NCBI GenBank assembly: GCA_017555825.1
Contig: JAFZFQ010000037.1
Coordinates: forward strand, 1 to 64,000
Length of the DNA stretch: 64,000 nt
Source: Bacteroidaceae bacterium
Lineage (GTDB): Bacteria > Bacteroidota > Bacteroidia > Bacteroidales > Barnesiellaceae_A
Direction of reading: 5' to 3'
The notes beneath the pieces are model-generated. The model was not told where the DNA came from. It searched no databases and saw nothing but the letters and a program-made list of their open reading frames with translations. The position numbers and the translations under genes are program-made. Shown one piece after another: positions 35,654 to 63,878 of this stretch; within the stretch, counting starts at the first letter, position 1, and every line of letters begins with the position of its first letter.

Positions 35654-37822
35654 ATGAAAAAGCAATTACTACTTCTTTTTGCCGCATTGGCAATTTCATT
35701 GGCAACATATGCCGAGCATGAGTACATCCCTTTTCTTCAAGAAGGTAATGCGTGGGCGTTTCTAAACAGTGTGATGATGAGTGTTGATCAATACTCTATT
35801 AATGGAGCTGTAATAGGCGATAATGAATACAAGGTGATTTATAAAACCCGATTCAATGCGCTCTCATGGAAGTCTGAACAACCCTCAAAATGGGGCTACG
35901 CGCGAGAATCGGATGGAAAAGTATATTTAGATACAAACCAAGGCGAAAAAATTGTTTATGACTTTTCGTTACAAAAGGGCGATACTGCCTATTGGGGTAC
36001 TCTATACGACTCACAGGGAAAGCCCGTGTGTGACCGATATGTGTATGTAGAAGATGTCTATTATGAGCAAATTGCTGGACAAAATCGCAAAGTATTGAAA
36101 GTGGAAACCTGCGGGGTGAGTCTTAATGAAATGGATGATTATGCTGTGATTCGCGAGAAGGAAACATGGATTGAAGGCATGGGGTCAACACGTGATATTT
36201 TTGAAAGTGAAGAATGTCGTTGGGCAGATTTCGTTGGACCAAGCAGTCAATATGCATATTACCATAATTATCTGACGGATGTCACTTATCCCGAGAACGC
36301 CGAACTATATGATTTTATTACCTGTTATGAGCACGAGTATATACCCTATGTTGAAGAGGGAAAGGTATGGGTAGATAAAGACCACCAAGGAAACCATATA
36401 CAAGTTGGTATAAGTGAGACTATTACCATCAATCAAAAAGAGTATTACAAGCTGTATAAACAAGGTTTTAGTGATTATGGTGGTAATCAAACTCCAACCG
36501 GTGATTCTCAACTTCATGGATATATCCGTGAAGAGGATAAACGGGTCTATGTGAGAAGTATTAATAATGAGCAAGAGTATTTGATATACGATTTTGGAGC
36601 ACAAGTAGGCGATACAATAGATTGGGCTACCATAACCTACACATGGACTGATGTTATCTTCAAACGGTATATTGTAGTAGATAGCATCGCGACAGCAACA
36701 TATTATGGTAAAGAGCGAGACATATACTATGTAACTTGTATCGAAAGAATTTTTGATAAATCGGGGGTAGAGAATATCGAAAATGGTCCAAGGTATTTCA
36801 ACGATGTGTGGATTGAGAGTATAGGAACACTGCAACATCCTATTATGTCGCGTCTTGATGATGCTTTTAGATGGGGGGCAACGGGCATGGAGTGGTTCGA
36901 TTACTGCTACAACTACAATACCCAAGAGATATATCCTACCGACAAAACACCTATGCCCGAATTCTCATATCCCGAGCGTGGGTACATCCCTTTTCTTCAA
37001 GAAGGTAATGCGTGGGTAGAAGAAGGTATAGGTGGCGTATACAGTCGTTATATGATAGCCGACACCACTGTGATTAATGAGAAAGAGTATTGTGTGATAA
37101 AGCAAAGGTGGGTATATATAAATGAGGATATTTATAAAGATGTAAGTTATAAAACCTACATTCGCGAAGAGGGGAAAAAAGTATACCAATATCAATATGA
37201 GGGAAACTTTATCCCTGTATGGTCTAATACCGAACATCTTTTCTTTGACTTCGGTGCTCAAAAAGGAGATAGTATTGTCGTCGCAGATTGGGATGAATAT
37301 AAACTAACTCTCGTTATAGATAGTGTTTGCCAAACAGTATTGAACAACAAGGATAGAGATGTGTTCTATGTTAGCTACATAGTATTGGATAAGGTGTTCG
37401 AAGAAGAATACATAGATAGACGTGATATTTGGATTGAAGGTATAGGATCAACCCAAACGGCTACATATGACTGTAAATGGCGGTTGACAAGTGGCAATTC
37501 ATGGTTCTACTGCTTCCATAACTACGACACCGGGTATACATACCCCGAGTATAAAACGATGTTAGACTTCAGTGCCGTACACGCTACACAGTCCGATGCA
37601 AAAAACCTCACCCTACACCGCAATGGTGATGCGTTGATGGCGGTGTTCCCCACAGCTCAGGCGGGCGAAGCTATCACGCTATACGATGCTACAGGTCGTG
37701 CAGTGGCTATACAAGCTGTGCGCCAAGGTGCTACTACGGCTAACATCGATGTGGCTACACTCCCTGTTGGTGTATATATAGCCCGCCTCAATAGTGGCGC
37801 TACAGCCAAGGTGGTGCTGTAG
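35654..37822 (+). CDS. Secreted three-repeat protein with T9SS type A sorting domain
   Basis: A 722-residue exported protein. A signal peptide (MKKQLLLLFAALAISLATYA) is followed by three tandem copies of a domain of about 210 residues. Each copy starts with a (H/G)EYIP(F/Y)-x2-EG-x2-W-type motif near 23, 230 and 440, and ends with (D/W)IEG-G-(S/T)-like segments. The last 71 residues are a Por/T9SS C-terminal domain ending GVYIARLNSGATAKVVL. It should be exported by Sec, carried across the outer membrane by the type IX system, and attached to the surface. The repeat domain matches nothing I recognise. The region is AT-richer than its neighbours. A 35-bp stretch is identical between repeats 1 and 3 (35722 and 36982). 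Confidence 0.85.
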   Translation: MKKQLLLLFAALAISLATYAEHEYIPFLQEGNAWAFLNSVMMSVDQYSINGAVIGDNEYKVIYKTRFNALSWKSEQPSKWGYARESDGKVYLDTNQGEKIVYDFSLQKGDTAYWGTLYDSQGKPVCDRYVYVEDVYYEQIAGQNRKVLKVETCGVSLNEMDDYAVIREKETWIEGMGSTRDIFESEECRWADFVGPSSQYAYYHNYLTDVTYPENAELYDFITCYEHEYIPYVEEGKVWVDKDHQGNHIQVGISETITINQKEYYKLYKQGFSDYGGNQTPTGDSQLHGYIREEDKRVYVRSINNEQEYLIYDFGAQVGDTIDWATITYTWTDVIFKRYIVVDSIATATYYGKERDIYYVTCIERIFDKSGVENIENGPRYFNDVWIESIGTLQHPIMSRLDDAFRWGATGMEWFDYCYNYNTQEIYPTDKTPMPEFSYPERGYIPFLQEGNAWVEEGIGGVYSRYMIADTTVINEKEYCVIKQRWVYINEDIYKDVSYKTYIREEGKKVYQYQYEGNFIPVWSNTEHLFFDFGAQKGDSIVVADWDEYKLTLVIDSVCQTVLNNKDRDVFYVSYIVLDKVFEEEYIDRRDIWIEGIGSTQTATYDCKWRLTSGNSWFYCFHNYDTGYTYPEYKTMLDFSAVHATQSDAKNLTLHRNGDALMAVFPTAQAGEAITLYDATGRAVAIQAVRQGATTANIDVATLPVGVYIARLNSGATAKVVL
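37607..37822 (+). repeat. T9SS tail repeat, copy 1
   Basis: The 216 bases that encode the sorting domain match 39439-39654 with about 15 differences (about 93% identity), while the protein bodies upstream differ. This indicates recent duplication or gene conversion of the tail. Confidence 0.85.
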
Positions 37823-38050
37823 TGGAAAAGGATAAAGAAAAGCACCTTGCCGCCTATCAAGGTGAAGATGGGGAAATCTTTTAGAGCCTACTACAACAGC
37901 GAACAACATTGACACCACGATGACTTGGATGTTGTAAATAATGGGCAAACACCTTTCGCTATAAACTATACGATTGAACAGGGTGCATTTAGAAGTGTTA
38001 ATAGATAATGGTAGACTTGCTTTTACAAAGTAATTGTTATATATGCAAAA

Positions 38051-38058
38051 AAGGAGGT
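38051..38058 (+). promoter_or_regulatory. Strong Shine-Dalgarno sequence, unusual here
   Basis: AAGGAGGT lies 3 bases before the ATG at 38062. Nearly all other starts in the window lack such a sequence, as normal for Bacteroidota. It supports this start over the upstream ATG at 38008. Confidence 0.55.
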
Positions 38059-38061
38059 ATT

Positions 38062-39654
38062 ATGAAACGAATATTTATCACTTTATTGGCGGTGCTTAGC
38101 ATTGCAACCATGTTGGCTAAAGATAGCTATTTGCCAATATGTACTCCCGGACGTGATTATACCTATACCAATGGTAAATATACACTCGATCTTAGCACAA
38201 TAACGTCAGAACATTCCGGTTATGTGTGGTTTGATCGTGAGGAACTATTCCCGTATAGCAACCGACTGCGCGAGGAAGGCTCTCTTGTTCTTAAGTATTT
38301 CCCCAAGTATAAAAAGGAGTCCGGATGGATCGAAAAAGCTGAAGAAAATTTCACAACGACAGGTAGCGATTTTGTATATTTTGATTATAATCTGCAAGTA
38401 GGTGATACTCTTTGTGTTGTAGATATGACCCAATATGATGACAAAGAAATTTATGGTCGTATTATTAAAGTCCTATCTATAGACTCCGTAGAAATAGGTT
38501 CGCTAAACCGATTAAGATACAACCTTGAGTCAAGAAATTTTTATGCTTCTATTTGGGAGAAGCATGATGATGAGTACCATTTTTCAAAGGTCACATATAA
38601 CACACCCTATAACGACTCGTGGATAGAGGGAATAGGATATACAAATTACAATTTCGATAGAAATACATTGGGACTTTATTCTCTTTATGACAGTGGCACG
38701 CTCATATATGGTGAAGAAAATGTTGATGAAAATACTTATTTGTCTACGTGCATACCTCTAAGAGAGTATATTTACTATCATGAACAAGGAGGTCGCTGGC
38801 TTGAAATGTCATTTTTGTCAGAAAAATTTCCAGGTTATACTGCCCATAATTATGATAGTTACGGCAGCAAAGTTTTGAGAGAGCAGGGGGCACAAATTCT
38901 ACGAAACTTTGACGGCCTGACAACCACCCCCGAGTTGATAAAGTTATTGAACGAAAATTTGCCAACTGTCAATGATGACTTTGTCTACTTCGATTATAAT
39001 CTTCAAATAGGCGATACCCTTTGTGTTGTGGAAAGCACTGCCACCGCTGTGTGTGAATATGAAATGCATATATTAGATGGCAAAATAATAAAAGTGTTGT
39101 CGGTAGATACAATAGAACTTGGTATGCAATCACAATTGAAATATAATCTCGAATCACGACCTTTCATTGCAGTACTCAGCATGTACTACGATGCTGCACT
39201 ACCTCCCGAAGAAAGAGTTTATGAATATAATTATGGTATAGATATTGGTAAAACCTATAGTGATGCATGGATAGAGGGTATAGGATATACCTCGATAGTT
39301 TTTCCCGATGATTTAGATGCTAACTTAATACACAAACTCCAATGTGTGTTTGAGGAAGGTGAACTAATATATTGTGCCGATGGCGCCGATTGTAACGGAC
39401 TGAGCGACCGGACCAATAAGAAGATAGATTTTGCCACCCTCACCCTACACCGCAATGGCGATGCGCTGATGGCGGTGTTCCCCACAGCTCAGGCGGGCGA
39501 AGCTATCACGCTATACGATGCTACAGGTCGTGCAGTGGCTACGCAAACCGTGCGCCAAGGTGCTACTACGGCTACCATCGATGTGGCTACACTCCCTGCA
39601 GGTGTGTACATAGCCCGCCTTAATAGCGGCGCTACAGCCAAGGTGGTGTTGTAA
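38062..39654 (+). CDS. Secreted two-repeat protein with T9SS type A sorting domain
   Basis: A 530-residue exported protein. The start at 38062 gives a clean signal peptide (MKRIFITLLAVLSIATMLA) and sits next to a strong ribosome site; an upstream in-frame ATG (38008) would put 18 polar residues before the signal. The body is two tandem copies of a domain of about 215 residues. Each has DFVYFDYNLQ(V/I)GDTLCVV and a later DSWIEGIGYT or DAWIEGIGYT. The tail is the same T9SS sorting domain as in the gene before it. The repeat is distantly like that of the neighbour (both have WIEGIG(Y/S)T). Function unknown; a surface or secreted protein. Confidence 0.85.
   Translation: MKRIFITLLAVLSIATMLAKDSYLPICTPGRDYTYTNGKYTLDLSTITSEHSGYVWFDREELFPYSNRLREEGSLVLKYFPKYKKESGWIEKAEENFTTTGSDFVYFDYNLQVGDTLCVVDMTQYDDKEIYGRIIKVLSIDSVEIGSLNRLRYNLESRNFYASIWEKHDDEYHFSKVTYNTPYNDSWIEGIGYTNYNFDRNTLGLYSLYDSGTLIYGEENVDENTYLSTCIPLREYIYYHEQGGRWLEMSFLSEKFPGYTAHNYDSYGSKVLREQGAQILRNFDGLTTTPELIKLLNENLPTVNDDFVYFDYNLQIGDTLCVVESTATAVCEYEMHILDGKIIKVLSVDTIELGMQSQLKYNLESRPFIAVLSMYYDAALPPEERVYEYNYGIDIGKTYSDAWIEGIGYTSIVFPDDLDANLIHKLQCVFEEGELIYCADGADCNGLSDRTNKKIDFATLTLHRNGDALMAVFPTAQAGEAITLYDATGRAVATQTVRQGATTATIDVATLPAGVYIARLNSGATAKVVL
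39439..39654 (+). repeat. T9SS tail repeat, copy 2
   Basis: Second copy of the 216-base segment at 37607-37822; see there. Most of the roughly 15 differences are silent or conservative. Confidence 0.85.
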
Positions 39655-52026: not shown

Positions 52027-53958
52027 TTATCGCACGACAACCTTGGTTACTTCAACAGCACCGTTGGCTACCACTTGTACAAGTGCTACGCCTTGGTATT
52101 GGGCAGTGCCGAGTGTTACTGTACCATAGCCGGTGGTTGTTGCAAGTGTGCGACCGTCGAGAGCTATCAACGAAGCTGTCATCTCGGTGTTGTCCATAGC
52201 AACAACTTTCACGCTACCATTTTCTACGATGCATTTAGTGGTATTGTTATTGGCAACGCCCTTGATGGCTGTGTGGTCTTTTACACGTACCATGTCGGCG
52301 TTTACTACACGCTTGGTCTTGCCATCTACTACCATAGCAACGATGTTGAGGTTGAAGGGGTTTTGTACAAACTCTATAGAACCTGTACCCATAGCCTTGG
52401 TATAAGGCACCTCGATGGTGTAGCTGTAGGTTGCATACTCACCGGCTGTTATTGTTGAGGGCAAGCTACCTTCTTCGCCGTAGAATGAGGGGTAGATACC
52501 ACGAGCAAGGTCGTTGAGTACAACTTCTACACTTTGGGGTTTTCTTTGCCATCCGCCAACCCAATCTTTCGAGCCCGAGTAGGCGTTCTTTTGGTAGAAG
52601 CCTGTAACGCTATCCTCGGTGAGTACATATACTACTCGCCAGTCAAGATTTGATTTATCTTCGGCTGTGCGCACTTTGGCTTCGGCAACAATGTGTGTTT
52701 GAGCCTCGTTCAAGCGAGCAGTAACGCTTACACCGGCTTCGGGTATCTCATTTTGTTGTCTATCAACAAGTGAAAGCCAAGAAGCAGGGTCGTCAAAATT
52801 GTAGCCCGAACCATTGCCGGTGGGGTTTGCTACATAGCGACGGTCTATCCAACCAATGGGGTAGGCGGTGAGACCGTTAGAGAAGAGGTTGCCTGTGTAG
52901 TCGTCTACAAGGAGGTTTACGCTACCCAATTGAGCACATTGTACGGCAATGGGGGCAACCTTCTCGGGTGAAACTTCCTTGAGCGAGTCAATAGCCCATG
53001 CACCAATCGGACAGTATGCACATTGTACACCTGTGTGCTCCTCGATAACTACACGACGACGGAAGGTGTTGGTTACCGACGATGCGTAGTCGTACTTGTC
53101 GCTACCTACTGTTGCGTGGAGCGTATATTGTATAGTCTCGTTGAAGTTGATAGGCATTCTGTGGCTCATAGTGAATGCTTTGCTATTGCCACGTGTAATG
53201 TTGAGGTTGCCGAATGTTTCGGTTACGCTCTTGTCGCCATACTCCAATGTTACGCTCACCTCGTCGAGCTTGTCGTATTGATAGTTGACTATATTGCCCG
53301 AGAATTTTACTTCTTCTACCTCGTTTACTACACTACCCAGGTTGAGCTCGATTGCAAACTTGTCATTGCTATATACCTTGATGTTGTCTACTGCAATGAT
53401 GCTCTTGTCGTAGCTTTGGTTTACAAAAGCTATATAAATGGTCTTGCCGGCATATTGAGCCAACGACAACTCGTGCGAGATAAACTCGTTTTCAAAGTAA
53501 TCTTCGGTCTTGCCTATTTCCTCTTCGGCAACTTCCCATACGGGTGTTGTGCCAAAGTCGCTGGGCTTGTTACCCTTGGTCGAAATGAATATTTTGAGAC
53601 CGTCGCGCTTGTTGGCCAAGAATGCTTGAGACTCCCATGAAAGCATCATGTTTTCGTTAAGAACAGTCACTGCAGGCAGCACCATCCAGTCGTTGGCTTG
53701 TCCGGCGGGGGTGTATTGCGATGTGCTACCCAAGAACATATCGGTGCTGGTGTTGCTGTCGCGAATGAGAATCCAGGGATTGTCCACAGCAAAACCAATA
53801 CTTTGCATAAATGATGTGGGGGTAAGTTGGTCTACGTCGTAGAAGGTGAGGCCGGTCTTATCTCCGTCGTTAAAGTTATACTCAAGCACTACAGGCTGAG
53901 CCATTGCACCACTGATAGCAAGAACTGCTGTCAGCAAAAAAGCAGTAATTTTTTTCAT
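52027..53958 (-). CDS. Omp28-related secreted protein with adhesin-like and Por-type tail domains
   Basis: A 643-residue exported protein. The start at 53958 (MKKITAFLLTAVLAISGAMA, a signal peptide) is used because the longer frame begins inside the promoter region. Residues about 20-190 look like a cleaved-adhesin / choice-of-anchor-J jelly-roll domain (LEYNFNDGDKTG, NDWMVLPAVTV, SIIAVDNIKVY). The central part has the Omp28 hallmark EEHTGVQCAYCPIGAWAID, a CxxC-containing segment similar to thioredoxin-like proteins. The last 70 residues have the style of a T9SS sorting domain. It probably sits on or outside the outer membrane. Confidence 0.85.
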   Translation of the reverse strand: MKKITAFLLTAVLAISGAMAQPVVLEYNFNDGDKTGLTFYDVDQLTPTSFMQSIGFAVDNPWILIRDSNTSTDMFLGSTSQYTPAGQANDWMVLPAVTVLNENMMLSWESQAFLANKRDGLKIFISTKGNKPSDFGTTPVWEVAEEEIGKTEDYFENEFISHELSLAQYAGKTIYIAFVNQSYDKSIIAVDNIKVYSNDKFAIELNLGSVVNEVEEVKFSGNIVNYQYDKLDEVSVTLEYGDKSVTETFGNLNITRGNSKAFTMSHRMPINFNETIQYTLHATVGSDKYDYASSVTNTFRRRVVIEEHTGVQCAYCPIGAWAIDSLKEVSPEKVAPIAVQCAQLGSVNLLVDDYTGNLFSNGLTAYPIGWIDRRYVANPTGNGSGYNFDDPASWLSLVDRQQNEIPEAGVSVTARLNEAQTHIVAEAKVRTAEDKSNLDWRVVYVLTEDSVTGFYQKNAYSGSKDWVGGWQRKPQSVEVVLNDLARGIYPSFYGEEGSLPSTITAGEYATYSYTIEVPYTKAMGTGSIEFVQNPFNLNIVAMVVDGKTKRVVNADMVRVKDHTAIKGVANNNTTKCIVENGSVKVVAMDNTEMTASLIALDGRTLATTTGYGTVTLGTAQYQGVALVQVVANGAVEVTKVVVR

Positions 53959-53991
53959 ATTTATATGTTTAGATGTTTCTCTCCGATGGCG

Positions 53992-54022
53992 CAAAGATAA
54001 TACAAAATGTATACTTCAACAA
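53992..54022 (-). promoter_or_regulatory. Promoter of the Omp28-like gene
   Basis: The minus strand has TTG (54022-54020), a 20-base spacer and TATCTTTG (53999-53992), both exact matches, 34 bases before the start at 53958. Confidence 0.65.
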
Positions 54023-57928: not shown

Positions 57929-59179
57929 ATGAAGAGAGAAGAATTTGAAATTATGGCTCCTGTGGGCTGTTATGAGTCATTACAGGCAGCTATACAAGCC
58001 GGAGCCGATTCGATATACTTTGGTATCGAAGGATTGAATATGCGCGCACGCTCGTCGGTAAACTTTACCATCGACGATTTGCACAATATAGCCCAAATCT
58101 GCGACCAAAATGGTTTGAAAAGCTATCTTACCGTCAATACCATTATCTACGACAACGATATGGAGTTGATGCGTAGCATTATCAATGCAGCACGCGATGC
58201 CGGTATCTCGGCCATCATTGCAAGTGATGTGGCTGCTATGACCTATGCCCGTAGCATTGGTGTAGAAGTACACTTGTCTACACAACTCAACATATCGAAT
58301 GTCGAGGCTTTGCGCTTCTACTCTCAATTTGCCGATGTTGTGGTGTTGGCTCGCGAGCTCAATATGGATCAAGTGGCGCACATCTACCGTGCCATTGAGG
58401 AAGAAAATATTGTGGGACCTGCCGGCAAACCTATACGCATAGAGATGTTCTGCCATGGTGCGTTGTGCATGGCCGTGTCGGGCAAGTGCTACTTGAGTTT
58501 GCATCAAATGAACAACTCGGCCAACCGTGGTGGTTGCATGCAGATATGCCGTCGCTCATATCAAGTGACCGACCGTGAGACCGGTGAGGAACTTGCTATC
58601 GAAAATCAATATATCATGTCGCCCAAAGACCTCAAGACTATACACTTCCTCAACAAACTTGTAGACTCGGGTGTGAGAGTCTTTAAGATTGAGGGTCGTG
58701 CTCGTGGTCCTGAGTATGTGAGCACCGTTGTTTCGTGCTACAACGAGGCCATCGAGGCTTGTCTCGAAGGCACATTCACCGACGAGCGCATTGAGGAGTG
58801 GAATACTCGTCTCTCAACCGTGTTCAACCGTGGATTTTGGGATGGCTATTACCTGGGACAACGCCTTGGCGAATGGTCTAAGAATTACGGCTCGTCGGCT
58901 ACCAAGCGCAAGGAGTATATAGGCAAGGGTGTCAAATACTTCTCTAACTTGGGTGTTGCCGAGTTCTTGCTCGAAAGTAGCGAGTTGTCGGTGGGCGATG
59001 AAATCCTTATCACAGGCCCCACAACAGGTGCGTTGTTTGTCAAGGTCGATGAGATACGTGTTGCTCTCAAGAGTGTCGATAAGGCGGTCAAAGGTCAGCA
59101 CTTCTCTATCAAGCTCGACCAAAAGATACGCCCATCGGACAAGTTGTATAAGTGGGTAGATACCGATCGTAAACAATAA
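57929..59179 (+). CDS. U32-family peptidase-like protein (TrhP/YegQ group)
   Basis: A 416-residue member of the U32 family. The N-terminal barrel starts MAPVGCYESLQAAIQAGADS, and the signature region is EMFCHGALCMAVSGKCYLS followed by NRGGCMQICRR, whose cysteines could hold an Fe-S cluster. Members called TrhP/YegQ make the 5-hydroxyuridine in the tRNA wobble base; others were named collagenases on older evidence. The tRNA role is the more likely one here, from length and motifs. It is first in an apparent three-gene operon, 10 bases before the large TPR gene. Confidence 0.9.
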   Translation: MKREEFEIMAPVGCYESLQAAIQAGADSIYFGIEGLNMRARSSVNFTIDDLHNIAQICDQNGLKSYLTVNTIIYDNDMELMRSIINAARDAGISAIIASDVAAMTYARSIGVEVHLSTQLNISNVEALRFYSQFADVVVLARELNMDQVAHIYRAIEEENIVGPAGKPIRIEMFCHGALCMAVSGKCYLSLHQMNNSANRGGCMQICRRSYQVTDRETGEELAIENQYIMSPKDLKTIHFLNKLVDSGVRVFKIEGRARGPEYVSTVVSCYNEAIEACLEGTFTDERIEEWNTRLSTVFNRGFWDGYYLGQRLGEWSKNYGSSATKRKEYIGKGVKYFSNLGVAEFLLESSELSVGDEILITGPTTGALFVKVDEIRVALKSVDKAVKGQHFSIKLDQKIRPSDKLYKWVDTDRKQ

Positions 59180-59189
59180 AATACACAAC

Positions 59190-62171
59190 ATGAGCAGACT
59201 ATATACTGTGCTCTCAATGCTCATATTGTGTGCAGTAGCCGTGTGCGGACAATCGATGCACACCACCGATGCTGCATCCGACTATGAGCGAGGTTATGCG
59301 ATGTATTATGATGGCAACTATATCGGTTGTTACGATATTATGTCTTCGTTGTTACGTCGCAGTGATGCATCGCGCTACCACGAAGAGGCGGCTTTCTATG
59401 CTACTATGTCGCAAGCACAGCACGCTGTAAAGCGCACGCCCGAGTTGCTCAACCGCTATCTGCTGGAGTATCCCTACTCTCTTCATCACAGCGAGATAAA
59501 GTTGGCGTTGGGTTATTACTACTACAATGAGGGGATATATGACAAGGCTGTGGAGCACTTGTTGAATATAAGTCTCGACAATATCGATCGTAGCGAGCAA
59601 GATGACTACTGCTATCGATTGGCTATGAGCTACATCAAGACCAATCAGCCCGAAAAGGCTCTGCCTCTGTGCAAAGCATTGTCGCAGAACTCTACTCAAT
59701 ATCGCAACGAGGCCTACTATTATTGTGGTTACATCTACTACGAAATGGGGAATTATGCGATGGCTCGTCGTGAGCTTGAACAGGTGCGTTCCACCTCGCA
59801 GTATGGCTTTGATGCGCAATATCTGTTGCTCAATATCGACTTTTTCAATAAGCAGTATGCACAATGTATCGCATTGTGTAGCCAGCTCTTGAATGAAGCC
59901 CCCGACACAAAATGTCGCGCAGAAATCAACCGTATAGCCGGAGAGTGTCACTACCAATTGGGCAATGATGTACAAGCGTTGAAGTATATCAATGACTACA
60001 TGAAGTTGACCGATGAGCCTTATCGCACCACGCTTTATATAGCCGGTATATTGACCTATCGCAATAAGCAGTATGACCGTGCTATTGAGTTGTTGAGTGG
60101 TGTTACAGATGACCACGACGCTATTGCACAGAGTGCCTATCTGCATCGAGGTCTGGTACATTTGCAACTCAAAGACTTGCGCCAGGCCTACACGGCGTTT
60201 ACCCATGCTGCCGAGAGCCGATGCGACGAAACCATTCGTGAGATTGCTCTTTACAATCAAGCTCTGTGTGCATATGAGGGCAATTTAAGCCTTTTTGATA
60301 GCACTCTGGCAATGTTTGAAAATTTTGTGCGTCAATATCCCGCATCGGCCTATATAGATGATGTAAACAGCCGAATATCGGAGTTACACATCACGTCGCG
60401 CAACTATAAGGTGGCGCTCGACTATATCGATCGTATCAAGCAACCATCTGACGAGGTACTCAAGCAACGCCAACAGATATTATATATACTTGGTACCGAG
60501 TCTTTTGCCAATAATAAGATAGCAGAGGCTGCCGATTGGTTTTCGCAAGCTGTCAAGGCGGGCAATCATTCTCCTGAGTACAAGCTACGCTCGATCTATT
60601 GGTTGGGCGAGTGCTGTTATCGCATGGGCGCCTATAAAGAGGCTCTCAAGTGCTACGAGCAGGTAGTCAAGAGCAATATTACTACCGATGCAACGACAGT
60701 GGCTTTGGCTCAGTACAACATAGCTTATTGTTACTTCAAGAGCAAGAAGTATAGCAGTGCATGCACAGCCTTTGAGCTCTATACCAAGCAACAAGGAGCT
60801 ACTACTCCCCTGCTTGTCGATGCCTATAGTCGCATGGGCGACTGCTCGTTCCATGCAAGTAAGTATACCAATGCCGAGAAATACTATGCCAAGGCTGCCG
60901 GATACAATAGCAATGGTAGCGACTATGCCTTGTTGCAACAAGGCATTGTTGCGGGTGTGACTAAGGATTACAATAAAAAAGTAAATCTCCTCTCGCAACA
61001 TATCAAGAAATATAAGCAGTCGGAGTATAATGCCGAGGCTTATAGCGAATTGGGTTATACATACATATCACTCAACAAGAACCACGAGGCAATAAATGCC
61101 TTTAATACCCTTGTAGAGACCTATCCCAAGAGTGCTGTTGCGCGCGAGGCGATGTTGCAATTGGGTGCCTTGTATTACAACCAAAGGGAGCTCTCAAAAT
61201 CTATTGCTGCCTATAAGAAACTTGTGACACAGCACCCTACGAGCAACGAAGCCAAGGTTGCTATAGAGGATCTCAAGTCGATATACATAGAGCTCGACCA
61301 GGTTGCCGAGCTGTCGCTCTTTATGCAACAGCAGGGCTTAGATTACCAAAAGAACGAGTTAGACTCTCTTACCTATATGGCTGCCGAGCGCATTTACATG
61401 ACTCGTGGCGATGTCTCTTCGCTTGCCAAGTATACATCGCAGTTCCCGCAAGGTGAATATACAGCTACGGCCTACTACTATATGGGCAACGTAGCCGATG
61501 TTGAGCAGAAGTATGATGAGGCATTGTCGCACTATCTTCACTCGTTGCAGGCCGATCCTGACGGTAACTTCTCGACCGAGGCTTTGGCACGCAGTGGCGA
61601 TATTCTCTATGATATGGAGCAATATGAGCGTGCTGCAGCCCAATATACACAATTGGTAGAGGTTGCTACCTCGACCGAGTTGCGTTACAATGCGCGTTTG
61701 GCTCTGTTGAGATGTCATGTCAATATGCAACAACATGCCGAGGCAATAACCTTGGCCACACACATCTTGTCGCAGAGCAAGTTGTCGCCCGAGGTGGAGC
61801 AAGAGGTGCGTTATCATAGAGCTATGTCGTACCAAGCAAGTGGCGATGTGGTGGCAGCTATGGCCGACCTTGCCCTCTTGGCACAAGATACGCGCTCACA
61901 ATATGGAGCCGAGGCGGCCTATATCATGGCACAGCACAATTTCGATGCCGGTAATATTGGCGAGGCGGAGGCTATGGCCAACGATTTTGTGCAGAAGGGT
62001 ACTCCTCATGCCTATTGGTTAGCTCGCAATTTTATCTTATTGGCCGATATTTATGTGGCTAAAAACGATAATTATACCGCGCGCCAATATCTCATACAGC
62101 TACGCGATAACTATCCCGGTAGCAACGACGATATAGCCTCGCTCATAGCCACCCGACTCTCCAACCTTTAA
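59190..62171 (+). CDS. Large exported TPR-repeat protein
   Basis: A 993-residue protein with a signal peptide (about 1-20, ending AVAVCG) followed almost wholly by helical TPR-type repeats (at least 15). Examples are YAMYYDGNYIGCYDIMSSLL, LGYYYYNEGIYDKAVEHLL, YNIAYCYFKSKKYSSACTAF and YYYMGNVADVEQKYDEALS. Aromatic and Ala/Gly residues at TPR positions recur along its length. No lipobox is seen, so it is likely periplasmic. It lies 15 bases upstream of a beta-barrel protein gene. In other Bacteroidota a large TPR protein next to such a barrel is a recurring pair; the function is not known to me. Confidence 0.85.
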   Translation: MSRLYTVLSMLILCAVAVCGQSMHTTDAASDYERGYAMYYDGNYIGCYDIMSSLLRRSDASRYHEEAAFYATMSQAQHAVKRTPELLNRYLLEYPYSLHHSEIKLALGYYYYNEGIYDKAVEHLLNISLDNIDRSEQDDYCYRLAMSYIKTNQPEKALPLCKALSQNSTQYRNEAYYYCGYIYYEMGNYAMARRELEQVRSTSQYGFDAQYLLLNIDFFNKQYAQCIALCSQLLNEAPDTKCRAEINRIAGECHYQLGNDVQALKYINDYMKLTDEPYRTTLYIAGILTYRNKQYDRAIELLSGVTDDHDAIAQSAYLHRGLVHLQLKDLRQAYTAFTHAAESRCDETIREIALYNQALCAYEGNLSLFDSTLAMFENFVRQYPASAYIDDVNSRISELHITSRNYKVALDYIDRIKQPSDEVLKQRQQILYILGTESFANNKIAEAADWFSQAVKAGNHSPEYKLRSIYWLGECCYRMGAYKEALKCYEQVVKSNITTDATTVALAQYNIAYCYFKSKKYSSACTAFELYTKQQGATTPLLVDAYSRMGDCSFHASKYTNAEKYYAKAAGYNSNGSDYALLQQGIVAGVTKDYNKKVNLLSQHIKKYKQSEYNAEAYSELGYTYISLNKNHEAINAFNTLVETYPKSAVAREAMLQLGALYYNQRELSKSIAAYKKLVTQHPTSNEAKVAIEDLKSIYIELDQVAELSLFMQQQGLDYQKNELDSLTYMAAERIYMTRGDVSSLAKYTSQFPQGEYTATAYYYMGNVADVEQKYDEALSHYLHSLQADPDGNFSTEALARSGDILYDMEQYERAAAQYTQLVEVATSTELRYNARLALLRCHVNMQQHAEAITLATHILSQSKLSPEVEQEVRYHRAMSYQASGDVVAAMADLALLAQDTRSQYGAEAAYIMAQHNFDAGNIGEAEAMANDFVQKGTPHAYWLARNFILLADIYVAKNDNYTARQYLIQLRDNYPGSNDDIASLIATRLSNL

Positions 62172-62186
62172 TTTGCGCATAAATAT

Positions 62187-63878
62187 ATGAAACGATATAC
62201 TCTCATTTTTGCCACAATGCTTGCGATTGTATTGCAGGCTTATGGTAATGACACTTTGCAGCGCGAGGTAACTATCGTGCGCAACTTTACGCCTACAGTG
62301 AGCGATGCCGACAAGATCAATACGCTACCGCCCATTACCACACCCTTATTTGAGCGCGACGATGTCACCTATGCCTTCGACGCATTTTCGGCAGGAGTCG
62401 TATCGGTACCCTCTAAGATTGATATGCCCTCGCTTGCATATGTGCAAGACAGTGTGACGCGATACAATGGATATGCCAACTTTGATATGGGTATGTACAT
62501 GGCTATGGCTGCCAATGCCGGTTATCGCATACTCGATACCAAGAGCGACAAATTGGGTGTAGCTGCGCAGTTTACATCGCTCAACGGAGATATTCCCATC
62601 GGTAGTCATGTTATGTTGCTATCCGACAAGACTCATCAGACATTCTACGATGTGCGTGCCGGCTTGCATTATGCCCATGTTTTCAGCAACAATATAACCA
62701 TGGCTCTCAATGCTTCATATCGATATGCTCATTTCAACTATTATGGTGTGATGGGCGAGGGTAACTCTCCCACGCAGCAGGTCAATAGTTGTATGGTCGA
62801 GTTGCGTGTCGATAACAGCGAGGCGCAACAGTATGACTACGAAAAGTGGCACGTCTTGGCAGGATATAAGCTTTATGACAATAGCACGGCCTTGTATACC
62901 CAAGCTCCCTCGCGCGAGCACGATGCCTATATCGACTTATCTTACCAATACATGCTCGACGACCACTGGAGCGTGGGTGGCGACATGAAAGGCGAGTATC
63001 TGCAGTACAACGGCCTCCTCGGTGTGCCATATCCCGATGCCGAGAGCACTCTATTGCCTCATGAAATCCTCACAGAGCACATCTTCATGATGCGTCTATT
63101 GCCCTATGCAACCTGGAACAAAGGGCGTGCGAGCCTTCGTGCCGGGCTCAAAATGGACATATCGGTAGGCGATGGCAATGTGTTTTGTGTAGCGCCCGAT
63201 GTGCGCTTCAATTGGGAGTTTATCCACAATTACTATCTTTTTGCCAACATAGGTGGAGGCAAGCAACTCAATCGCTGGAATGATGTGTCGCAATATTGTC
63301 TCTATTTCGACCCATCGCAGCAGATAGCGTCAAGTTATTCGCCCCTCGATGCACTGTTGGGTGTGCGCATGCACATCATTCCCGAGCTCTATGTTACGCT
63401 ATATGGAGGGTATGAAGTAGCCGATCGTGCCCTGTTTCAGCAGGTTGATGGTTTTTCACAAACAGTTGTGTGGGATGCTATTGATGCCCAATGTTTCAAG
63501 GCCGGATTGGCGCTCGATGCACGTATAACCGAGTATGTAACCCTTACAGCCGATGCAGCTTATCGTCACTGGAGCCACAATGGCAAGGCTATAACCTACA
63601 ATCGCCCCCGTTGGGAGGCCAATGTTGCGGCTGTGGTGCATCCTCTCAAGCAGTTGGACGTGAAGGTAGACTATAACATGCAGCTCGAACGCGACTATGG
63701 CGTGTATGGCAAGTTGGCCGATGTGCACAACTTGCAACTATCTGCCACCTATCGCGTGTTTGATTGGCTCTCGGTATCGTTGCATGGCAACAACTTGCTC
63801 AACCGTCGCCACGACTATTATTTTGGCCTCCCCGCTCCCGGCATACAAGTCATGGGTGGTGTGGCAGTCAAGTTCTGA
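62187..63878 (+). CDS. TonB-receptor-like outer-membrane beta-barrel without plug
   Basis: A 563-residue protein with a signal peptide (MKRYTLIFATMLAIVLQAYG). A short conserved N-terminal segment, EVTIVRNFTPTVSDADKIN, follows. In Bacteroidota relatives the same place reads like V-x-Y-x-P-(S/T)-I-S-D-A-x-K. The rest is a series of amphipathic beta strands ending GGVAVKF, with the C-terminal Phe of outer-membrane barrels. There is no TonB box or full plug domain (a true receptor has about 130 residues of plug), so it is not a standard TonB-dependent transporter. It is the last gene of the U32-TPR-barrel operon. No terminator was found after it. Confidence 0.8.
   Translation: MKRYTLIFATMLAIVLQAYGNDTLQREVTIVRNFTPTVSDADKINTLPPITTPLFERDDVTYAFDAFSAGVVSVPSKIDMPSLAYVQDSVTRYNGYANFDMGMYMAMAANAGYRILDTKSDKLGVAAQFTSLNGDIPIGSHVMLLSDKTHQTFYDVRAGLHYAHVFSNNITMALNASYRYAHFNYYGVMGEGNSPTQQVNSCMVELRVDNSEAQQYDYEKWHVLAGYKLYDNSTALYTQAPSREHDAYIDLSYQYMLDDHWSVGGDMKGEYLQYNGLLGVPYPDAESTLLPHEILTEHIFMMRLLPYATWNKGRASLRAGLKMDISVGDGNVFCVAPDVRFNWEFIHNYYLFANIGGGKQLNRWNDVSQYCLYFDPSQQIASSYSPLDALLGVRMHIIPELYVTLYGGYEVADRALFQQVDGFSQTVVWDAIDAQCFKAGLALDARITEYVTLTADAAYRHWSHNGKAITYNRPRWEANVAAVVHPLKQLDVKVDYNMQLERDYGVYGKLADVHNLQLSATYRVFDWLSVSLHGNNLLNRRHDYYFGLPAPGIQVMGGVAVKF

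Follow-up and report, generated by a model that had tools for sequence, protein, structure and literature searches.

Outer-membrane barrels that work together with TPR modules are familiar from the exporters AlgK/AlgE, BcsC and PgaA, the known TPR-linked exporters using barrels of 16 strands, and from Slam, which is a single chain with a smaller barrel. The envelope of the Bacteroidetes has also been considered from the side of Tol-Pal. No tol-pal loci are identifiable in this group, and no pal genes were reported for it in the database used in the same study, while the Chlorobiota have documented tol-pal genes (PMC12204202). PorE has been put forward as an alternative to Tol-Pal, and further systems are expected (PMC12204202). 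We describe here a pair of genes from a 64,000-nucleotide stretch of DNA (the window) of a Bacteroidaceae bacterium. Most of the Bacteroidota inherit the two genes together, and no assigned function was found for the co-occurrence of a plug-less barrel with a periplasmic TPR protein, as the sequence-only reading of this DNA had also stated. The literature searched, which excluded preprints and was sparse in subscription papers, held no earlier description of the pair or of the gene cluster in which it often lies. The features of the locus are:

57929..59179, + strand: U32-peptidase-family gene, 416 amino acids (Pfam PF01136, E 1.5e-65)
59190..62171, + strand: TPR gene, an ORF of 993 amino acids for a large, exported periplasmic superhelix
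59190..59252, + strand: signal-peptide-like N-terminus of the TPR protein, MSRLYTVLSMLILCAVAVCGQ, judged by eye
62187..63878, + strand: barrel gene, an ORF of 563 amino acids for a predicted plug-less TBDT-type outer-membrane barrel
62247..62468, + strand: disordered N-tail of the barrel protein, residues 21-94, where TBDTs carry the TonB box and plug
62265..62321, + strand: conserved segment EVTIVRNFTPTVSDADKIN, residues 27-45, with a V-x-V/I core
62469..63872, + strand: predicted barrel domain of 22 strands, residues 95-562, from the AF2 model and fold matches

The sequence-only reading had proposed an exported TPR protein of 993 residues followed after 15 bases by a barrel, and the ORFs, the gap of 15 nt between the TPR stop and the barrel start, the TPR matches and the signal-like start all agree with it. 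The U32-family gene stops 10 nt 5' of the TPR gene, an arrangement found only in the sampled genomes of the window's own genus; there it is probably an operon partner of the pair, and its product probably lies outside the machine discussed below. Elsewhere in the window, ORFs of 722, 548 and 655 amino acids (35654-37822, 38008-39654 and 52027-53994) have no Pfam match at E <= 1e-8; their neighbours are housekeeping genes (DNA polymerase I, Mfd, PEPCK, GcpE, sigma-54 and an RNB-family RNase).

Pfam TPR matches are numerous and spread across nearly the full length of the 993-residue protein. A lipobox was absent from all 52 members of the family inspected. The TPR protein is conserved more strongly than the barrel, with a mean top-residue frequency of 0.42 vs 0.32. 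In one genome (G003) the TPR gene is broken into ORFs of 675 and 290 amino acids (L082, 5681-6553 and upstream), which is a frameshift or assembly error.

The barrel protein of the window has no Pfam match of its own, and a comparison of its sequence with solved structures (PDB) found no relative. An AF2 model was built from 70 relatives and has a mean pLDDT of 82. The top folds for this model are all TBDTs, with BtuB first (VIA-align Z 23.9 over 418 residues, 3.0 A). Of the 70 relatives, seven matched PF00593, the TBDT barrel family, and no plug family occurs among the 13 Pfam families that the 70 relatives match. The 22 predicted strands, the TBDT matches and the missing plug family together point to a TBDT-type barrel without a plug, the lack of a TonB plug having been noted by the sequence-only reading: the 22-stranded barrel of the TBDTs is predicted here without their N-terminal plug domain, apparently a case of the TBDT fold being put to a second use once the plug was gone.

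The N-tail of the barrel protein has a pLDDT under 50 at residues 19-28 and 38-90. Phylum-wide it retains V/I-x-V/I followed by P, A and K/R positions, so that the conserved N-terminal segment reported earlier is real. The V/I-x-V/I stretch sits near the predicted mature N-terminus, and LPxFVITG or something similar is found in several tails from outside the Bacteroidia. To judge from its residues the V-x-V/I core, which is short and low in information, resembles a TonB box.

For a joint AF2 prediction the TAA stop was translated as if it were a residue, which joins both genes in frame; the model covered the barrel plus the last 631 (C-terminal) residues of the TPR protein and had few paired rows. 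Under these conditions the pTM was 0.49 and no confident interface appeared. Both partners were well folded, the TPR part as a superhelix with a pLDDT of about 95, and the N-tail of the barrel was still under 60.

With a single protein as query, relatives were found only in two ruminant-gut Bacteroidaceae MAGs. An alignment search with the barrel gave strong matches in every Bacteroidia genome of the phylum-wide sample and, counted by eye, in 107 of 121 Bacteroidales genomes; the matches in the remaining 14 were weak or lacking, and the TPR family was found in 0/14 of these. Further copies of the pair were found at identities as low as about 16-20%, so that it is not a product of chance. In a phylum-wide test of 64 further genomes, nearly all outside the Bacteroidia, 44 carried both genes, 19 neither and one was discordant. 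The last of these (G064) matches no more than part of the barrel, at 81 bits, and this match looks like an ordinary TBDT; loci L116 and L156, which were judged to be ordinary TBDT-like matches, were excluded from the counts. The Fisher p for co-occurrence is 2.3e-15 by genome and 6e-5 by family, finer phylogeny being ignored. The sequence-only reading had offered the frequent presence of either gene alone as a refutation of its view, which did not come about: apart from this one weak discordance the genes are kept or lost together, the 14 Bacteroidales genomes included. The pair is absent from families f64, f69, f80, f89 and f92 and, within the Bacteroidales, from f11, f16, f97-f99, f102, f109, f124, f130, f132 and f134; f69 is probably Chlorobia, and f57, mentioned below, probably Flavobacteriaceae, both names being guesses.

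The two genes are adjacent in 53/53 Bacteroidia regions and, in the phylum test, in 38 of 44 pair-bearing genomes. The earlier assertion that they are always adjacent was wrong: they are unlinked, with both present, in f73, f75, f94 and one f57 genome, and the non-adjacent TPR gene is still carried by 7/7 f75 genomes. Co-presence despite unlinking is a stronger sign of shared function than adjacency alone. The unlinked TPR gene of f73 and f75 (L227, L230, L232) is flanked on one side by HflX-like and CBS-domain genes and on the other by AroA-, Hsp20- and DnaK-like genes, these names being judged by eye. In many genomes outside the Bacteroidia (L102, L104, L105, L107, L108, L111, L115, L117) the TPR gene and the barrel gene share 4 nt, an overlap that suggests translational coupling.

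The genomic context was derived by clustering of neighbour genes and HMM annotation of the regions. In most of the non-Bacteroidia genomes examined and in four Bacteroidia families the barrel gene heads a cluster, usually with the TPR gene standing 5' of it, and the order is TPR, barrel, SPOR protein, TolQ/ExbB, TolR/ExbD and TonB/TolA. Downstream of the barrel, 46 non-Bacteroidia regions contain SPOR in 45, TonB in 41 and ExbB in 33 cases, ExbB/ExbD not being adjacent in 13; as the HMMs derive from members of such clusters, these counts lean towards detection in similar clusters. All 15 regions from the Bacteroidia families f54, f61, f62 and f63 possess both SPOR and TonB, and ExbB/ExbD went undetected by HMM annotation in the lone f63 region. 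By Pfam and NCBIfam the products are SPOR with HU-CCDC81, MotA/TolQ/ExbB, ExbD/TolR, and TonB_C or tolA; for the motor protein the best-scoring model is TolQ, with a score under the cut-off of that model. In f73, f75 and f94 the cluster remains with the barrel and the TPR gene is elsewhere. No substrate, synthase or enzyme gene is found among the recurrent cluster genes, except FolC in some.

The fetched regions of the sampled Bacteroidales, the window included, and of f55-f60 show the pair alone, with no adjoining motor or SPOR gene. The pair is separated from such genes in the window's genome, and this context is consequently invisible in the window itself. Other contigs of that genome encode a candidate ExbB-ExbD-TonB set (L125) as well as an HU-CCDC81-SPOR protein (L182), and it is guesswork to link them with the window's pair. 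In four genomes of f57 and one each of f59 and the Bacteroidales, the TPR gene has an FtsE-like gene (about 241-243 bits vs a cut-off of 265) beside it in divergent orientation. At L062, L064, L065, L072, L094 and L229 this divergent gene for an FtsE-like ABC ATPase lies 120-300 nt from the TPR gene, and it is kept at the last of these (in G111), where the barrel is unlinked. The SPOR and FtsE-like neighbours only suggest a connection with division.

Co-inheritance of the pair, and its clustering in many lineages with genes for a cell-wall-binding protein and a motor driven by ions, suggest that it may be the outer-membrane arm of a force-transmitting machine. We propose a trans-envelope machine of the Ton/Tol type, driven by the proton motive force, whose outer-membrane and periplasmic arm is the pair, a proposal whose chances we put a little short of even. 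TolQ/ExbB and TolR/ExbD would constitute the inner-membrane motor, in an ancestral-looking arrangement, and a TonB/TolA-like protein would span the periplasm and grip the TonB-box-like N-tail of the barrel. There being no plug for TonB to move, the pull would act on the membrane-embedded barrel itself, and hence on the membrane. The long TPR protein would be the periplasmic scaffold, presumably in direct contact with the barrel, and the SPOR protein would tie the assembly to peptidoglycan. The likeliest job would be the coupling of the outer membrane with the cell wall and inner membrane; perhaps the machine draws the outer membrane inward at division, as Tol-Pal does in Proteobacteria, a role that the reported lack of tol-pal loci in Bacteroidetes (PMC12204202) would favour. 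In unlinked lineages, including that of the window, we infer that the pair draws on a motor whose genes lie at another locus. A more far-reaching version, in which an ExbBD/TolQR machine whose TonB moves the outer membrane via the plug-less barrel replaces Tol-Pal in the Bacteroidota and was lost in some lineages, is possible and rather doubtful. Life without the pair in 14 or more Bacteroidales genomes and in several further families counts against the force-transmitting machine, as do the want of adjoining motor and SPOR genes in the sampled Bacteroidales and f55-f60, the 13 of 46 non-Bacteroidia regions with non-adjacent ExbB/ExbD and the low pTM of the joint model.

The main rival to such a machine is a TonB-energised conduit, in which a specific substrate (a protein, polysaccharide or fragment of the cell wall) enters or leaves through the open barrel, with the TPR protein as periplasmic gate or adaptor and the motor as the source of energy. 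A TBDT-type barrel with a TonB-box-like tail inside a TonB-ExbBD cluster would suit a conduit, as would the TPR-plus-barrel layout shared with AlgK/AlgE, BcsC and PgaA; but the pore would lack a gating plug, the predicted 22 strands differ from the 16 of those exporters, the cluster is poor in genes for a substrate or its synthesis, and the barrel is the less conserved partner. We regard the conduit as unlikely. That the motor genes are adjacent for other reasons, as parts of a general Ton system, and that the TPR protein bridges barrel and SPOR in an unpowered tether between outer membrane and peptidoglycan, would explain why the pair lies far from any motor gene in many lineages and why ExbBD is non-adjacent in more than a quarter of the non-Bacteroidia regions. 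TonB, however, stays clustered in most genomes, including most of those in which ExbBD is not adjacent, and the TonB-box-like tail is conserved, so that a tether of this kind is improbable.

The sequence-only reading had itself leaned towards an export or assembly device of the outer membrane. Its view of the genes as an envelope pair is favoured by their obligate co-occurrence; a general export or assembly role is disfavoured by the motor-SPOR context, by the SusD surface lipoproteins of pair-less genomes (50 in G349, 15 in G383, 12 in G312 and 10 in G307) and by the published lists of BAM subunits. The pair is unnamed among the purified subunits (PMC12611786, PMC12578637), a comparison made by subunit names. 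A Slam-like exporter or BAM accessory for outer-membrane proteins or surface lipoproteins would agree with the outline of Slam, with the very wide distribution of the pair and with the unknown identity of the surface-lipoprotein flippase of Bacteroidota (PMC12578637), but the TPR_Slam match has an E of 0.074 and is under the cut-off, and we consider a device of this sort quite improbable. A surface-lipoprotein exporter or general BAM factor was rejected on the retention of SusD in pair-less genomes.

Returning to the force-transmitting machine, the described systems can be set against the locus as follows. With the TBDTs (BtuB, FhuA) the barrel shares the predicted 22-strand fold, a TBDT-like C-terminus, the TonB-box-like N-tail and, in many genomes, clustered TonB-ExbBD genes; it differs in having no plug, in its obligate TPR partner and in a context without uptake genes. 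Slam likewise unites TPR and an outer-membrane barrel, whereas it does so in one chain, and the genomes that lack our pair keep surface lipoproteins; the TPR_Slam score is 13.9 bits vs a cut-off of 35.2. PorW/SprE of the T9SS is also a large periplasmic TPR protein of Bacteroidota, and was rejected as an identity for the TPR protein (NF052312, 85 bits vs a cut-off of 250). PorE, a proposed tether between outer membrane and peptidoglycan in Bacteroidetes, shares the phylum, a proposed Tol-Pal-like role and the proposed use of force from a TolA/TonB-like protein (PMC12204202), but is one multi-domain lipoprotein, in contrast to the present locus, where a barrel and a soluble TPR protein are clustered with motor genes.

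The likeness to Tol-Pal (TolQRA-TolB-Pal-CpoB) lies in a single cluster that unites homologues of TolQ, TolR and TolA/TonB with a TPR protein and with what is probably a peptidoglycan-binding protein. TolQ-TolR and TolA/TonB stand in one locus in many lineages and are non-adjacent in the window's genome. TolB is absent from the recurrent cluster genes. TolB_N (PF04052) was found in 18 of 247 phylum genomes, mainly of f69 in frames of about 450 amino acids, and the pair is absent in 8/8 f69 genomes tested. A clean anticorrelation of pair and TolB was not obtained, f81 having the pair together with weak TolB_N matches in frames of about 1050 amino acids, and a clean pattern of tol-pal replacement is for this reason not shown. 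Against CpoB/YbgF the TPR protein reaches 191 bits with TIGR02795 (cut-off 90), summed over seven repeat-protein stretches, and 70 bits with the full-length CpoB model NF008068 (cut-off 383). The outer-membrane partner is a barrel here and TolB/Pal there, the TPR protein of about 1000 amino acids is no lipoprotein, and SPOR replaces the OmpA-like domain. The co-inherited barrel-TPR pair, clustered with a TolQR-TonB motor and SPOR, is a concrete and testable candidate; if the proposal is true, the envelope machines powered by ExbBD/TolQR would gain another type, built on a giant TPR scaffold and anchored by SPOR.
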